Assembly (NCBI RefSeq): GCF_000565175.1
Contig: NZ_CP006681.1
Span: 620,001-684,000 of the forward strand
Length of the DNA: 64,000 bases
From: Spiroplasma culicicola AES-1
GTDB taxonomy: Bacteria > Bacillota_I > Bacilli_A > Mycoplasmatales > Mycoplasmataceae
Direction of reading: 5' to 3'
The notes beneath the pieces are model-generated. The model saw only the letters and a program-made list of their open reading frames with translations, made no database searches and was not told where the DNA came from. Position numbers and translations under genes: made by a program. Shown here in pieces: positions 41,723 through 54,336 of this stretch. How positions within the stretch are numbered: position 1 is the stretch's first letter; each line of letters begins with the position of its first letter.

Positions 41723-41882
41723 GGTTAAGCACCCCCTAGATAATTATTGATATTTATTAATTATACTTGTTAAAGTAACTTAAAGCAAAAAATAGAACTC
41801 TCTTAAATCAAGGAATCATAGCATTTTAGAAAGAATTTCAAATATTTTGTTGCGTTTTACAACTTCAAATATAAAAATGATA

Positions 41883-41916
41883 GTTAAAAAATGCAGTATT
41901 TACTGCATTTTTTAAC
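41883..41916 (-). terminator. Hairpin terminator
   Basis: 16-bp perfect arms GTTAAAAAATGCAGTA and complement, overlapping the lipase stop. Confidence 0.85.
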
Positions 41917-43414
41917 TATTAAATTGTTTTGCTAACTCTTCTAATTTTTCTGCAACTATTTCATGAACGTATTTTGTTGGATGAACAAAATCTGTAAAGA
42001 AATATGAGTCAATATCTGGCATATCATCACCATTTTCTGCTATACTTCTATAAGTTTGCATATTAGCTTCAATATTTAAACTTATTCCAGTAAATAAAGC
42101 TCGATTTTGTATATTGTTTGTTACAAGCTCACTATATTCAAGATAACTCATTACATCTTTAATTTGGTTATCACCACTTGGTAGTAATTCTTTAATATCA
42201 AAACAACTTAAATCTTGATTTAATAAAGTTGCACAAGCATTTAATTTTTCCAAATTTGCTGCAGCTGAATCAGTAAATGCATATTTCTTTTCAGTTTTTT
42301 CTCCTTTATTTGGATCAATAATTCCTTTTTCAATCATTAATTGTTCATGTTCATTTTGAAGATTTTCAAAATCACTATAAATATCATAAATTTTTATATT
42401 AGATGAATAAAAGTTTTGAACATATTTAACAGTATCTAACATCATTTGATTAAATTCTTTTGATATTTGTTGAATATATTTAAATTTATCATTATTTTGA
42501 TTACTATCTTCAACATATCTTGGAACAACTGATACATCTGGAGGTGTTCCTACAATTACATTTTCAATTCCATTATTTAATAAAGTAAATAAAGCAATTT
42601 TGATTTTTTCCATAGCCTCTGTTAATAATCTAGTTTGAGCTTTTCTATCATCTTTCAATTCTGCAAGAGCAAATAAATCATTTCCTCCAATTTCTAAAAA
42701 TACTAAATCATTTGTAGAATCTTCAATATGATGCTGAGATACTAAAGCCTCAGCTTGTTTATCAATTGTAACATCATTTAAAAGTATACTAGTAACATCT
42801 TTAACACTAGATCCAGTTGCTCCACCAATTGAATAGTTTCGACCATATTCATATTTAGGTTTTATATTCCCCATATTATATGGATCAGAAAATTTATTGC
42901 TTGATTTTATTTCTTCAAATCCCAATAAATTATTTAATTCTACACCAGCTGTTGGACCATTACTAAAATTTGAATGAAATACTTGTTTTTCATCATAATA
43001 TCCATAACCTCCAACTCCTTTTTCAGGCTCTGTACTAGCAAAATTAAAATTTATATTACTTCTAACTGCAATTTTGCCATCAATTAATATTAATTTAAGA
43101 ATTTTTTCAATTGCTGGGGGTAATTCTACTCCTAATTCTGGAAATGGAACTAATAATGTTTGAGAAAACTTTTGATTTATCAAAGTTGTTAAACCATTAT
43201 CATCACTTAAACTATCTCCAACTATAAAGTAATTTGTAAATCCTGAATCTGAAGGAGTTTCTGGAGCATACGTTGCATCATCTAGTTTTTTTATATTTTT
43301 ACCAATTGTTAAAGGATCAATTTGGGGAGCATTTTTAATTGTACAAGCAACTAGTGAAGTTGTTGTTGCTGCTACTAATGCTAAGTTTGCTAATAAAACT
43401 AATAATTTTTTCAT
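41912..43414 (-). CDS. GDSL/SGNH-family lipase or esterase lipoprotein
   Basis: A 500-residue lipoprotein: leader MKKLLVLLANLALVAATTTS with LVAC (Cys24). The SGNH blocks are IVGDSLSDDNG (nucleophile Ser68), NYSIGGATGSS, FLEIGGNDLFALAE and near the C-terminus FTDFVHPT with the catalytic Asp and His. Such enzymes hydrolyse lipid or carbohydrate esters; anchored outside, this one could release fatty acids from host lipids, which mollicutes need. Its ATG overlaps the stop of the upstream gene (TAATG), with GGGGGAGAAAAA as ribosome site inside that gene, so expression follows the upstream poly(A) promoter. Confidence 0.9.
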   Translation of the reverse strand: MKKLLVLLANLALVAATTTSLVACTIKNAPQIDPLTIGKNIKKLDDATYAPETPSDSGFTNYFIVGDSLSDDNGLTTLINQKFSQTLLVPFPELGVELPPAIEKILKLILIDGKIAVRSNINFNFASTEPEKGVGGYGYYDEKQVFHSNFSNGPTAGVELNNLLGFEEIKSSNKFSDPYNMGNIKPKYEYGRNYSIGGATGSSVKDVTSILLNDVTIDKQAEALVSQHHIEDSTNDLVFLEIGGNDLFALAELKDDRKAQTRLLTEAMEKIKIALFTLLNNGIENVIVGTPPDVSVVPRYVEDSNQNNDKFKYIQQISKEFNQMMLDTVKYVQNFYSSNIKIYDIYSDFENLQNEHEQLMIEKGIIDPNKGEKTEKKYAFTDSAAANLEKLNACATLLNQDLSCFDIKELLPSGDNQIKDVMSYLEYSELVTNNIQNRALFTGISLNIEANMQTYRSIAENGDDMPDIDSYFFTDFVHPTKYVHEIVAEKLEELAKQFNS

Positions 43415-44406
43415 TATTTTTCTCCCCCTTTATTTTCTGGTTTTAAAGTTTTTTCTTTTTTAGTTTTTGTTTTTTTCTCTGTTACTGTATTTTTTAGTGC
43501 AAGATAACTAAACACTGCTCCTGCTGGAATAATTGCAATATTAAAATAAAATAAAACATATGCAAATTTCATTAATCCTAATGCCGCAATAAAGTTTGGA
43601 TGATATAGATCATCAACTGTTACAGGTGTTTGAGCATTTTTTTGAGCTTGTTCTAATGCTTTAGCACTATCTTTAAATGGACTTAATGAAGGACTAATTG
43701 CTGAAGGTGCTGTTGCATTACTTAATGAAATGATTTGTTGATTTAGAAATCAAACTTTATTATTTACTAAATATGATCCAATACTTGAATTAACAACTAA
43801 TCCTGTAATTCCTGGTCCTTCATATTGCAAGTATGATTCATAGACATCTTGATTTAAAATTGTTTGTTGGTATAAACCTATTTCATAAGTTTCCTCAGCA
43901 AAGATTTCTGTTGTTCCATTTTTGTGAAACATTCATTGAATTCCTGTATTTACAAAACCATATGAATGATATTTTTGAGCAATTGCTTCATCAAATTCAA
44001 TAAAGTTTAATCCCACATCATGTAAATCAATTTCCTCTTTTGCTTCAACTTTAGCAGCTCAATGATCGTCATATCATTGATTTGCAAAATCTGTATAAGC
44101 ATCAACTAATGTATTTTTTTCCTCTTCGTTCATTCAGTTGACAGTTGATAATGCATCAGCTACATAAGATTTTTTAATTACACTATCCATTACCATACTA
44201 TATAAAGGGCTTTGTGGATTTACAACAAAAGTTCCCTTTGGCATAATCTTTTTAATTTGTTTTTCAACACTATTAATTAATTTTAAAGATTGTAAACCTA
44301 CTCCTGGAATTGTTAAAGCAGTTGAAGTAACTCCAAATGCAGCTGTAGCTGCAATTATTGAAAAACCAATAATTCTTCTTTTTTTATTATTATATTTTTT
44401 AAACAT
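43414..44406 (-). CDS. Membrane-anchored surface protein, 330 aa
   Basis: A basic N-terminus (MFKKYNNKKRR) leads into a first helix (IIGFSIIAATAAFGVTSTAL, ~residues 12-31), a ~240-residue outside domain, a second helix near the C-terminus (FAYVLFYFNIAIIPAGAVFSYL) and a Lys-rich tail inside. No domain recognised. Uses TGA Trp. AAGGAG upstream. It shares one base with the start of the GDSL lipoprotein, so the two are made together. The promoter carries a run of ~16 A, which suggests on/off switching of both. Confidence 0.65.
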
Positions 44407-44424
44407 TTTTTGAGCTCCTTATAA

Positions 44425-44468
44425 ACTCAATTATAAAGTTTTTTTTTTTTTTTTGAATAGAATTGAGT
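44425..44468 (-). promoter_or_regulatory. Promoter with ~16-base poly(A) spacer (candidate phase-variable)
   Basis: On the minus strand the order is: ACTCAATT-type arm, CTATTC, a run of about 16 A (44454-44439), CTT, TATAAT (-10, 44435-44430), the complementary arm AATTGAGT, then ribosome site and ATG. The A-run lies where the -10/-35 spacer should be. Homopolymer runs in this position switch vlp surface lipoprotein genes of Mycoplasma hyorhinis on and off. An 8-bp inverted repeat flanks the element. The exact A count may be off by one. Confidence 0.6.
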
Positions 44469-44509
44469 ATTTTAATAATTTTTTTATAACTTAAAATAAA
44501 TTTAGTATT

Positions 44510-44544
44510 AAAAAACTTAAATCATTTTTTGATTTAAGTTTTTT
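44510..44544 (-). terminator. Hairpin terminator
   Basis: 15-bp arms AAAAAACTTAAATCA and complement with T-run; ends the two-gene secreted-protein operon. Confidence 0.82.
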
Positions 44545-44555
44545 AAAATTCATTT

Positions 44556-45914
44556 TTAAATAAATTTCATTTTTAATCAAAAGGCCTTGAAATAATTATT
44601 TCTTGGAATCATTTCAAAACTTAAGATATCTCCAACATTTATTTCACTTGCTCTTAAAGAACCTATTTTTTGAATATAAATTATATATTCAGTTAAATTT
44701 GTTTCCAATTTATAAGGTTTTAAAATAATTTTATAATTTTCAACATTTATTTCTAAATTAAAATCAAAAATAAGTGGAGAATTATGATGTATTGAGATTT
44801 TTCCTTCGTATAAAAAATTTGAGTTAACTTTAAAATCTTTAATTTTTACATCAGAAACAATTTGAGAATTATCAATATCAATTATATCCTCATTAATCAT
44901 CACAAAATCATATTCTATTGTAAAAACATTAACTGAAATATTTAAATCATGATAAAGATAATTATCATCTCTTATTGCAAAAAATAACTTTACTGATTTA
45001 ACTAGAATGAATTTAATTTCAATAGTTTTTTGTTCTTGATCAATTCTAAAAGTTAAGTTTTTATTTTCACTTACATTCAAAGATATTTGATTTTTTGGAT
45101 CTTTAATTTTAAATTTAATTCATATATTTGGAGGATAAGAACTTTCAAGAGGAGTTGATTCATCTAACTCAATTGTTTGAATTTCACCATTCATAATTAC
45201 ATAAAAATCAATACCATGTTTTTTTGAAAGTTCTGCTTTTGAAGTAGCTGATATATAAAATTTTATTTTTTCTCTTTCAGCAATTTCGTTTCACCTTTTT
45301 CTGGGAAGAATATTAATAACTCCATTTTGTGAAATTGAAGTTTTTAAGAATTGATTATCAATTAAATTATTAAAGTTATCAAAAGGCTCAATTGAAATTT
45401 GAAAATTTGAAAATTCATTTGACTTATTAAGAACAATTTCTAATTCATTACCATAGGAAACACTAAACTGATTTTCATTTAGTAATCCTTGATCTAATTT
45501 ATGTCCAAAATTTACAACAACAGAAGGATTTGAAAATGTTATATTTTTAATATGTTGATTTTCTACCTTATAAAATTTTAATAAAAATCTTTTTGAATAA
45601 CGATCAATAATTTCATTTGATTCAATATTTGAATAAAATTTATCATCAATACAATTAGTTGGTTTTTGTTCATTACAACTGTTATCAAATGTTCCGACAT
45701 TAAATTCTTTAAAATTAGATGAAAATTGAACAAATGTATTAATTACCTCTTGATCAGAATTATAAACTTCATCTAATTTATCAAATTTATCAGTAATATA
45801 ATTATTAAATTTTTGTTCATATGGCTTATAATTTGGACTTGCACAAGCTATTGTTATTACTGGTAATGTAAACAAATGAATTAGTAAAGTTGAACTTAAT
45901 ATTCTTTTAAGCAT
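44556..45914 (-). CDS. Lipoprotein, 452 aa, coupled to the preceding secreted protein
   Basis: Leader MLKRILSSTLLIHLFTLPVI followed by TIAC (lipobox). The mature part is largely beta (NITFSNPSVVVNFGHKLDQG, EIEVLNKSN-like stretches, FKVNSNFLYEGKISIHHNSP), resembling serial Ig-like domains. 'RIKFYISATSKAELSKKHGI' type segments are helical exceptions. TGA Trp codons include one at a former break near 45290. It has no ribosome site of its own; the ATG lies 1 base after the previous stop, so it depends on translational coupling. Adhesin is a fair guess, no more. Confidence 0.65.
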
Positions 45915-51608: not shown

Positions 51609-54290
51609 TTATATTTTCTTATTAATTTTGCTTTTATTTTCTTTATTAATAGATTTTAAAATAGCTATTTCTTTAGCAAAATTATATTCAGGTTCTTTAG
51701 AATCAATATCATAATGTATACGCATAACATTTAAAGCATTTTTATATGAATTATTAATTTCTTGTAAAAGAACTAATTCAAAATTATATGTCTTATTAAT
51801 ATTTACTAATTTATTTTTGATATCTTGAATTTTTGAATTAACAAAATTATCTATTGGTTTATAATCAATCTCTGTTTTTACATTGCTAATTAATTCTTTA
51901 ATTTCATTTTTTCTTAAATCAAAGTTTTTTTGTTGCATAATTTCAATTAATTGCTCAGCTTCTTTTAATTTATTTTTTTTAATTAAATTTTTACCTTTTT
52001 CCATGTATTTGTCATTAATATTGACTTCTTTTGTTTCAAGTGAATTTAATTGTGTTTCATATTTTAATAGTCTCTGAACTTTTTTTTCAATTTCTTTAAT
52101 GTGTTTTTGTTCTTCAACTGTTACTAATTCTGGAATTTCATTAAATATATTAATAACTTCTTTTTTGTTTTTTTCATTTATCAGTCCTTGTAATTTCATT
52201 ATTGATAAAAGTTTTGCTGAAACAAATTTAAGGCTTTGTTTTTCAGTTTTTCTTTCAATATTAAATAATAAAGTAAGTAATATTGAAGCACCAATTGCAA
52301 TTAAACAAGACAATATATAGAAAATTCCGTTATTCAACTGTGTTAATTGCCCTAAAGGAATACCAATTGAACCAGTTGGATCTTGGATTGGATATTGAAA
52401 GGCACCAATAATTTCAAAAATACCTATTCCAGTTTGAATTCTTCCTGTAACTCCAACAAATCCTGCAAATAAACCTGCTATAAATGCTGCTAAAATACCT
52501 GATCAAAATACTCTTTTTCTTGGTAAATTAATTCCATATATAATTGGTTCTGTAATTCCTAAAATACCTACTGGAATTAAACCTATAGCTTGTTTTTTAA
52601 GGGCAGAATTTTTAGTGATTATCATTAATCCAACCATTGCTCCTCACTGTGCTCAAACAGAAATGGAAGAACCAGGTGTAAATAAAGCATATCCTCCTAA
52701 TCCAGTAGTTGCAGAAACTATAATTTGAATTGAAGAAATTATTCCCAAAGCCATATGGACACCAAATAAAACACAAATTTGTCATATAGCACAATAAATT
52801 CCGACTCCAAGTCCAAATGGTAATTTACCAATATAAAACATTATTACTCCAAATAATCCTTCAAAAATATTTCATAAAGGTAAAAGAATTATAAAAGTTA
52901 ATGTACATGTTAATAATATAACTAAAAATGGGCGAATTGTTAATTCAATAATTACTGGAATTTTTTTACCTAATCAATCATCTAGTTTTTTTGCAATATA
53001 AATTGCTCCAATAACTACAAATAACTTAAATTGTGCTCCTGTAATCACTAATTTTGTTATTTTTTGAATAATTAAATTTAATTCAATATCAGTAATACCT
53101 TTAATTTCACCAAAATCAACAATTACTCATTCTCCACCCATACCCATTTCTCCACCATTACTATATAGGATGGGCGAACAAAGTATTAGTGCAATTACTA
53201 CTCCTATTATTCTTCTTAAATCAAAAAATTTAGAAGCTGAGTAACCTACAATTATTCCAATAAACATTGAACTTGTTTTTCCCATAACAAATAAAATTAC
53301 TCATCATCATTTTTCATTAAATAATTGTGTTGTATCTACAAAACCAAGTGCAGGCATGACTCCCACTCACGTTAAAATACCAATTATTGCAGAAATCATT
53401 CCTGCACTTAAAAAAGCTGGAATAATTGGTGTCATTATTCCGGCAAAAGTTTGTAAAAGTCTACGAAATAAAGTCAATTCCTTTACTTTTGAATTCAAAT
53501 CAAAATTTCCAAGACTGATTTCATTATCTTTAATAACTTCATCTTTTACTTTATATACTTCTTGACCAATAATAACTTGAAGTTCATTACCATTTCAAAT
53601 TATTCCTTTAGTAAGATTAATTTTTTTAATGTTTTCTTCATTAACTAATTCTTTGTTTTTAATTGAAAAGCGCAATCTTGTCATACAATTATAAACATTA
53701 TTATAATTTGCTTGTCCCCCAACTAGATTATTAATTTCCTTTGCAATCTGAGCAAACTTATTATCTTGTGCAAAGAATTCTTTTGGATCAATAATTTTAT
53801 TTAAAACATCGTTTTTATTAATTAATTCAAATTCTCCAATTAATTCCCCTTGTTTAACATCTCCAACTTTTAAAATATTAAATCTATATTCATCACTTTC
53901 AGAATTAATTGTAATTGGACAGACATGGTCTAAACCTGCATTATTAATATAATTAATATCTACAGATATGATTCTCTTGCTAAGATTTACATCACTTTCT
54001 ATTTCAATTGCATTGCTAAAAGGTTTTCCATCCAAACTAACTGTGTCTAAACCTATATGCATTAAAATACTTAAATCTTTTTCAAGTTCAAAAAAAATTG
54101 CATGTAAGCTTTCTGCAATAAATTTTACTTTTCCCATTTCAATTGGCGAAAAGAAATCTTTTTTTTCTTTTCCAGAGGCTCTAATATAAAAACCATCACC
54201 AAGCAGTTTTTGACTAAATACACCATCATTTAGTTTATCAATTGAATCAATATAACCATCAACTGGTGCATATATTTTTATTTTTTGCAT
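51609..54290 (-). CDS. PTS EIIABC permease, glucose/beta-glucoside superfamily, with coiled-coil tail
   Basis: An 893-residue membrane protein in A-B-C order. EIIA (1-~160) has YAPVDGYIDSIDKLNDGVFS and the phospho-His in LMHIGLDTV (His78). EIIB has the phospho-Cys in NNVYNCMTRLRF (Cys202). EIIC (~265-660) spans ~10 helices, with GITEPIIYGINLP as the typical sugar-binding loop. The C-terminus adds a ~220-residue charged helical tail after a last membrane helix (LSCLIAIGASILLTLLFN), which the family normally lacks. TGA Trp throughout. Transports and phosphorylates a sugar, likely a beta-glucoside. A long palindrome and a poly-A/T run precede it. Confidence 0.9.
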
Positions 54291-54320: not shown

Positions 54321-54336
54321 AAAAAAAAAAAAAAAA
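54321..54336. repeat. ~16-base A-run (T on the minus strand) before PTS gene
   Basis: Sits in the leader/promoter zone of the minus-strand PTS gene, between the palindrome at 54345 and GTACATTGAAG. A second homopolymer run of this size in the window, beside the one at 44439. The count may be off by one. Confidence 0.6.

Follow-up and report, generated by a model that had tools for sequence, protein, structure and literature searches.

In Mycoplasma hyorhinis, the promoters of the vlp surface-protein genes contain a homopolymeric A tract (Citti & Wise 1995, as reviewed in PMC10502178), and insertions and deletions in the spacers of the vlp, maa2 and vmm promoters switch transcription (PMC2268961; PMC10502178). 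The vpma genes of M. agalactiae serve as a warning against function inferred from anatomy: the T-tract just upstream of their −10 box generates no variation (PMC2268961). Promoter-linked A/T runs as such are already known from M. hyopneumoniae, where runs of 8-25 adjoin putative promoters genome-wide (PMC5179023).

The locus studied here lies in a window of 64,000 nucleotides from Spiroplasma culicicola AES-1, the whole stretch of DNA that was analysed. Like the vlp promoters, it has a homopolymeric A tract in a surface-protein promoter of a mollicute, and it resembles the vpma surface-lipoprotein promoter, with its T tract just 5' of the −10 box. It differs from vlp in that a conserved two-gene operon is involved together with ~50 unrelated genes elsewhere, that both A and T tracts occur, and that switching is putative; behind the tract lies a pair of genes, for a conserved membrane protein and for a GDSL lipase, rather than a tandem array of variable surface-lipoprotein genes. 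The maa2 promoter of M. arthritidis and the vmm promoter of M. mycoides, with their −35/−10 spacer indels, are single-gene cases, while the A16 tract described here belongs to a genome-wide class. The vmm spacer is a TA repeat.

The A16 promoter and its operon

The T16 read on the plus strand at 44439-44454 is an A16 on the minus strand, where the order of elements is ACTCAATTCTATTC-A16-CTT-TATAAT-TGAGTTTAT-AAGGAG-CTCAAAAA-ATG. The −10 box TATAAT (44430-44435) is evident from the sequence and from a promoter scan, whose best result was TTCAAA-16-TATAAT, with 10/12 matches and a spacer of 16 nt. This −35 candidate (44452-44457, minus strand), which is also favoured by alignment with the class of tracts described below, is weak, and its last three A's lie inside the A16. 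A Shine-Dalgarno sequence, AAGGAG (44415-44420, minus strand), stands 8 nt before the ATG at 44406-44404. The homopolymer thus makes up the bulk of a −35/−10 spacer, as in promoters of the vlp type, and we suggest that this would be the single promoter for both genes of the operon. Further upstream, a palindromic hairpin (44508-44546, minus strand; a self-complementary match) probably terminates the preceding gene (44556-45914).

The first gene (43414-44406, minus strand, genetic code 4) encodes a 330-aa membrane protein that is conserved in the family, has no Pfam match and, judged by eye, carries hydrophobic segments at its N- and C-terminal ends. Its stop codon overlaps the start of the second gene (41912-43414, minus strand) as TAATG. 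The second product, a 500-aa lipoprotein, matches the Lipase_GDSL profile PF00657 (E 2e-13; 51.3 bits against a cut-off of 23.6) and has the GDS, GGND and DxxH blocks expected of a GDSL lipase/acylhydrolase in the form of GDSLSD, GGND and DFVHP. A scan predicts an intrinsic terminator at ~41880-41919 (minus strand) as the end of the operon; the search for matches among phage records gave none. The earlier note, made from the sequence, had placed the A run between a −35 region and TATAAT and had read the genes behind it as an operon of a membrane protein and a GDSL lipoprotein, and both observations hold.

The same note had pointed to an 8-bp inverted repeat around the tract, with the left arm ACTCAATT at 44425-44432 and the right arm AATTGAGT at 44461-44468. 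The repeat exists, and its perfect arms on both sides of A16 could suggest an operator for a regulator; its significance, on the other hand, dissolves on comparison, since in the window such repeats also flank 3 of 126 short A/T runs, a chance-level frequency, and A16 is alone among the 54 long runs of the genome in having one. We therefore judge the arms to be a chance match, reject the repeat as an operator, and regard this explanation as highly improbable.

Homologs of the 330-aa protein were found in 55 of 60 family genomes, and the GDSLSD motif follows 3' of the homolog in 30/30 loci examined, the window's own included. The tract does not share this conservation: within these 30 loci, the only runs of at least 13 nt at the promoter position are the A16 of the window and a T15 in genome G050, while 28/30 lack one (at L040 a run of T13 or longer lies ~190 nt upstream of the operon start, which is not the promoter position; at L045, where our script misplaced the start, the longest run is at most 9). 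The long run is thus not required for expression of the operon, and the comparison indicates an old operon with a recent tract, specific to a few lineages. This bears on the view that A16 is a fixed structural element, a stiff A-tract spacer that replaces a poor −35 and sets constitutive strength, with any length variation incidental. The weak TTCAAA is in keeping with such a role, but most homologous operons do without the tract, and an uninterrupted run is the most mutable design one could choose for a fixed element; we consider this explanation improbable.

A genome-wide class of long A/T runs

There are 54 A/T runs of at least 11 nt in the genome, and every one of them is 15-20 nt long (3 of 15, 25 of 16, 20 of 17, 3 of 18, 2 of 19 and 1 of 20), with none of 11-14. 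The window repeats this pattern, with 21 runs of length 8 and two of 16 but nothing in the 9-15 range. Extrapolation from the tail of the short runs over the whole genome predicts ~43 runs of 11-14 and ~0.9 of at least 15, against the 0 and 54 observed; the extrapolation is crude, while the 11-14 gap itself is not in doubt, and an excess of long tracts is what slippage would be expected to leave. The second class member in the window is a T16 in the sense direction (54321-54336, minus strand), followed by GTACATT and located 30 nt before a gene for a PTS enzyme II (EIIA-EIIB-EIIC; 51609-54290, minus strand).

The 60 family genomes together contain 1019 runs of at least 15 nt and 66 of 11-14; among the 36 that have 10 or more long runs, 20 are without a single run of 11-14. 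Homopolymer lengths are prone to sequencing error, and one might suspect an artefact in the run or in its exact length; 52/60 family genomes, each deposited separately, have runs of at least 15 nt and show this same gap in length, and we give this idea almost no credence. Several family genomes, among them G031, G048, G049, G052, G053 and G056, are without any run of at least 15 nt, and from this distribution the long-tract state appears to be gained or lost between lineages.

The long runs are registered with promoter boxes. A TTG lies no more than 5 nt 5' of 33/54 runs in the sense direction, compared to 3/54 antisense and 10/122 short runs, and a TANNNT starts no more than 5 nt 3' of 37/54, compared to 9/54 antisense; these sense/antisense contrasts are inflated, as runs were oriented toward the downstream gene, at some sites by eye and partly by the look of the promoter. 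TTGC directly adjoins 20/54 runs, and the enrichment of TTG at T-sense runs is strong (Fisher p = 4e-11), while for TANNNT the contrast between long and short runs is weaker (36/122 short runs; p = 1e-4). A test free of orientation, counting TTGC+T15, gave 16 cases in the genome versus 0 reversed, and ~168 versus 1 reversed over 198 genomes of the order (hand-summed). The median distance from tract to start codon is 70 nt, and one group of distances clusters at 27-37 nt. This registration indicates that most of the 54 tracts occupy −35/−10 spacers.

Some members of the class have a different setting. One A16 (L069:1502-1517; G000:C1:4530-4545) is an odd case that, by eye, sits at an apparent gyrB/gyrA junction; it lacks promoter boxes, and the second start codon follows after 14 nt. 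At L099, L101 and L117 a single gene is preceded by a pair of long tracts with 9-16 nt between them (722499/722532, 731587/731619 and 1086391/1086419), one of the two sometimes directly behind a terminator hairpin. In two other families, TTGC+T15 recurs in tandem series, often every 1-3 kb (G125:C1:170991-204655 and G157:C1:121580-125594); these look like vlp-style arrays.

Slippage and the length of the tracts

A length tuned for a fixed spacer was considered and rejected. The length of a run does not make up for its distance from the boxes (rho −0.13; totals 14-19, mode 16), and ~10 runs that lie directly behind a hairpin, in the manner of a terminator U-tract, have the same lengths as the promoter tracts, so that the length does not look tuned to the promoter. 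Hairpins accompany the runs on one side in 12 cases versus 3 on the other; in the sister species G041 and G043, no clear hairpin enrichment over the control was found (6 vs 6 and 8 vs 6). Mismatch-repair deficiency, a further feature expected where tracts slip, is indicated by a search for mutS1 that was negative in 60/60 family genomes and positive in 11/14 controls. Our inference is that slippage is at equilibrium at 15-17 nt, and that tracts beyond ~9 nt but shorter than this are unstable and either move up or collapse.

Comparison of related tracts is in line with slippage. In the stretches examined in G041 and G043, runs are 6-9 or 15-17 nt long with none in between. Among 19 reciprocal-best tracts of these two species, most with flanks 90-99% identical and a few paralog-like with one weaker flank, 9 differ in length, each by exactly 1 nt, a difference that an assembly error of ±1 could also produce. 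Where the sister lacks the run, it is either interrupted at about equal total length (A8TA8, A8TA6, A6TA8, A7GA7) or contracted (A10, A8, A7). Within the genome, the promoters of two PTS paralogs are nearly identical, with a T16 in one (window 54321-54336; 674320) and a T17 in the other (G000:C1:687452-687468; 687451), and another near-identical paralogous pair differs by 1 as well (697377 with 16, 737559 with 17), although assembled homopolymer lengths may be off by 1. Slipped-strand change, which had been proposed for the A16 tract itself, thus gains indirect support at the level of the class, through the missing mutS in 60 genomes and the ±1 differences in 9/19 sister-species tracts; A16 itself had no orthologous counterpart with which its length could be compared. 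The interrupted counterparts, which keep a total of ~15-17 nt, are also what the improbable stiff-spacer explanation would predict.

These data can be read without any switching. Tolerated A/T runs longer than ~9 nt might, without mismatch repair, simply drift to 15-17 nt, with promoter spacers and terminators merely tolerating them, so that length varies and expression changes little. The tracts behind terminator-like hairpins and the unclassified tracts, which at 15-19 nt resemble the promoter tracts, fit such neutral drift, as do the empty 11-14 range in 20 of 36 genomes, the interrupted or contracted counterparts of some tracts in the sister species, and the precedent of the M. agalactiae vpma T-tract (PMC2268961). 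It does not sit well with the strong TTG(C) enrichment directly 5' of the runs and the −10-like box 3' of them, as tolerance alone does not predict a strand-specific TTGC. We regard such drift with little consequence for expression as possible but doubtful.

We favour the reading that A16 is a slippage-prone spacer of the lipase-operon promoter whose length changes turn transcription up or down, and give it a probability of roughly 0.55. In the absence of MutS, slippage of DNA polymerase would hold the 54 A/T tracts near 15-17 nt, and A16 would gain or lose single A's in a growing population. Each such change would alter the offset between TATAAT and the weak −35, and operon transcription could rise or fall with it, either by degrees or as an on/off switch, as for vlp in M. 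hyorhinis. As A16 has no good −35, spacer length may matter little. The promoter is probably slippage-prone and a member of a large genome-wide class, its switching being putative; phase variation of the lipase operon by spacer slippage is plausible by analogy. As for the earlier proposal of a phase-variable lipase switch, the vlp-like anatomy is borne out, while a special status for the lipase operon is not: its tract is one of 54 similar ones in the genome.

Targets of the class and wider meaning

The 54 tracts precede ~49 distinct genes, of which ~13 encode lipoproteins and ~8 are PTS genes; the others include an aquaporin-family protein, PAP2, an acyltransferase, an RpiR-type regulator, an aminotransferase and family-less membrane proteins. 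Lipoproteins are only modestly enriched (13/49 targets, compared to about 8-10 of 56 window ORFs), and the class is thus not just one of surface variation. Among the targets is a defence-like operon (L210:3156-8733; G000:C1:458655-464232) behind an A17 tract (G000:C1:458605-458621). Its promoter, TTGC-A17-TCTACAAT, stands in front of the gene for a DndC homolog (E 6e-104). Next in line come genes for a HATPase/MzaB-like protein, a Z1 helicase (MzaC-like) and a nuclease-like protein with DUF4420, and the neighbours in the island include an adenine methyltransferase together with an HNH protein and a viperin. From its promoter, we regard this DndC-type island as a candidate phase-variable defence island.

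The runs of M. hyopneumoniae have a broad length range, in contrast to the sharp 15-20 class described here, with its empty 11-14 interval and its registration with TTGC and the −10 box. Within the literature open without subscription we found no description of the sharp length class, the TTGC registration, the spread over the family or the defence-operon target, and nothing published on homopolymer promoters in Spiroplasma or on phase variation there by slippage.

We tentatively propose, as a conjecture with less than even odds, that Spiroplasma and its relatives have dozens of stochastic promoter switches of the form TTGC - T/A 15-17 - TANAAT, with one equilibrium length and one mutational clock, which would control lipoproteins, PTS uptake, DndC-type defence and the lipase operon. 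The empty 11-14 interval together with the sharp 15-17 peak offers a clean natural readout of slippage without mismatch repair. If the tracts do switch transcription, they would form one of the larger promoter contingency sets, in an insect-associated group for which our searches turned up no account of phase variation, and their reach would extend beyond the surface to metabolism and phage defence.
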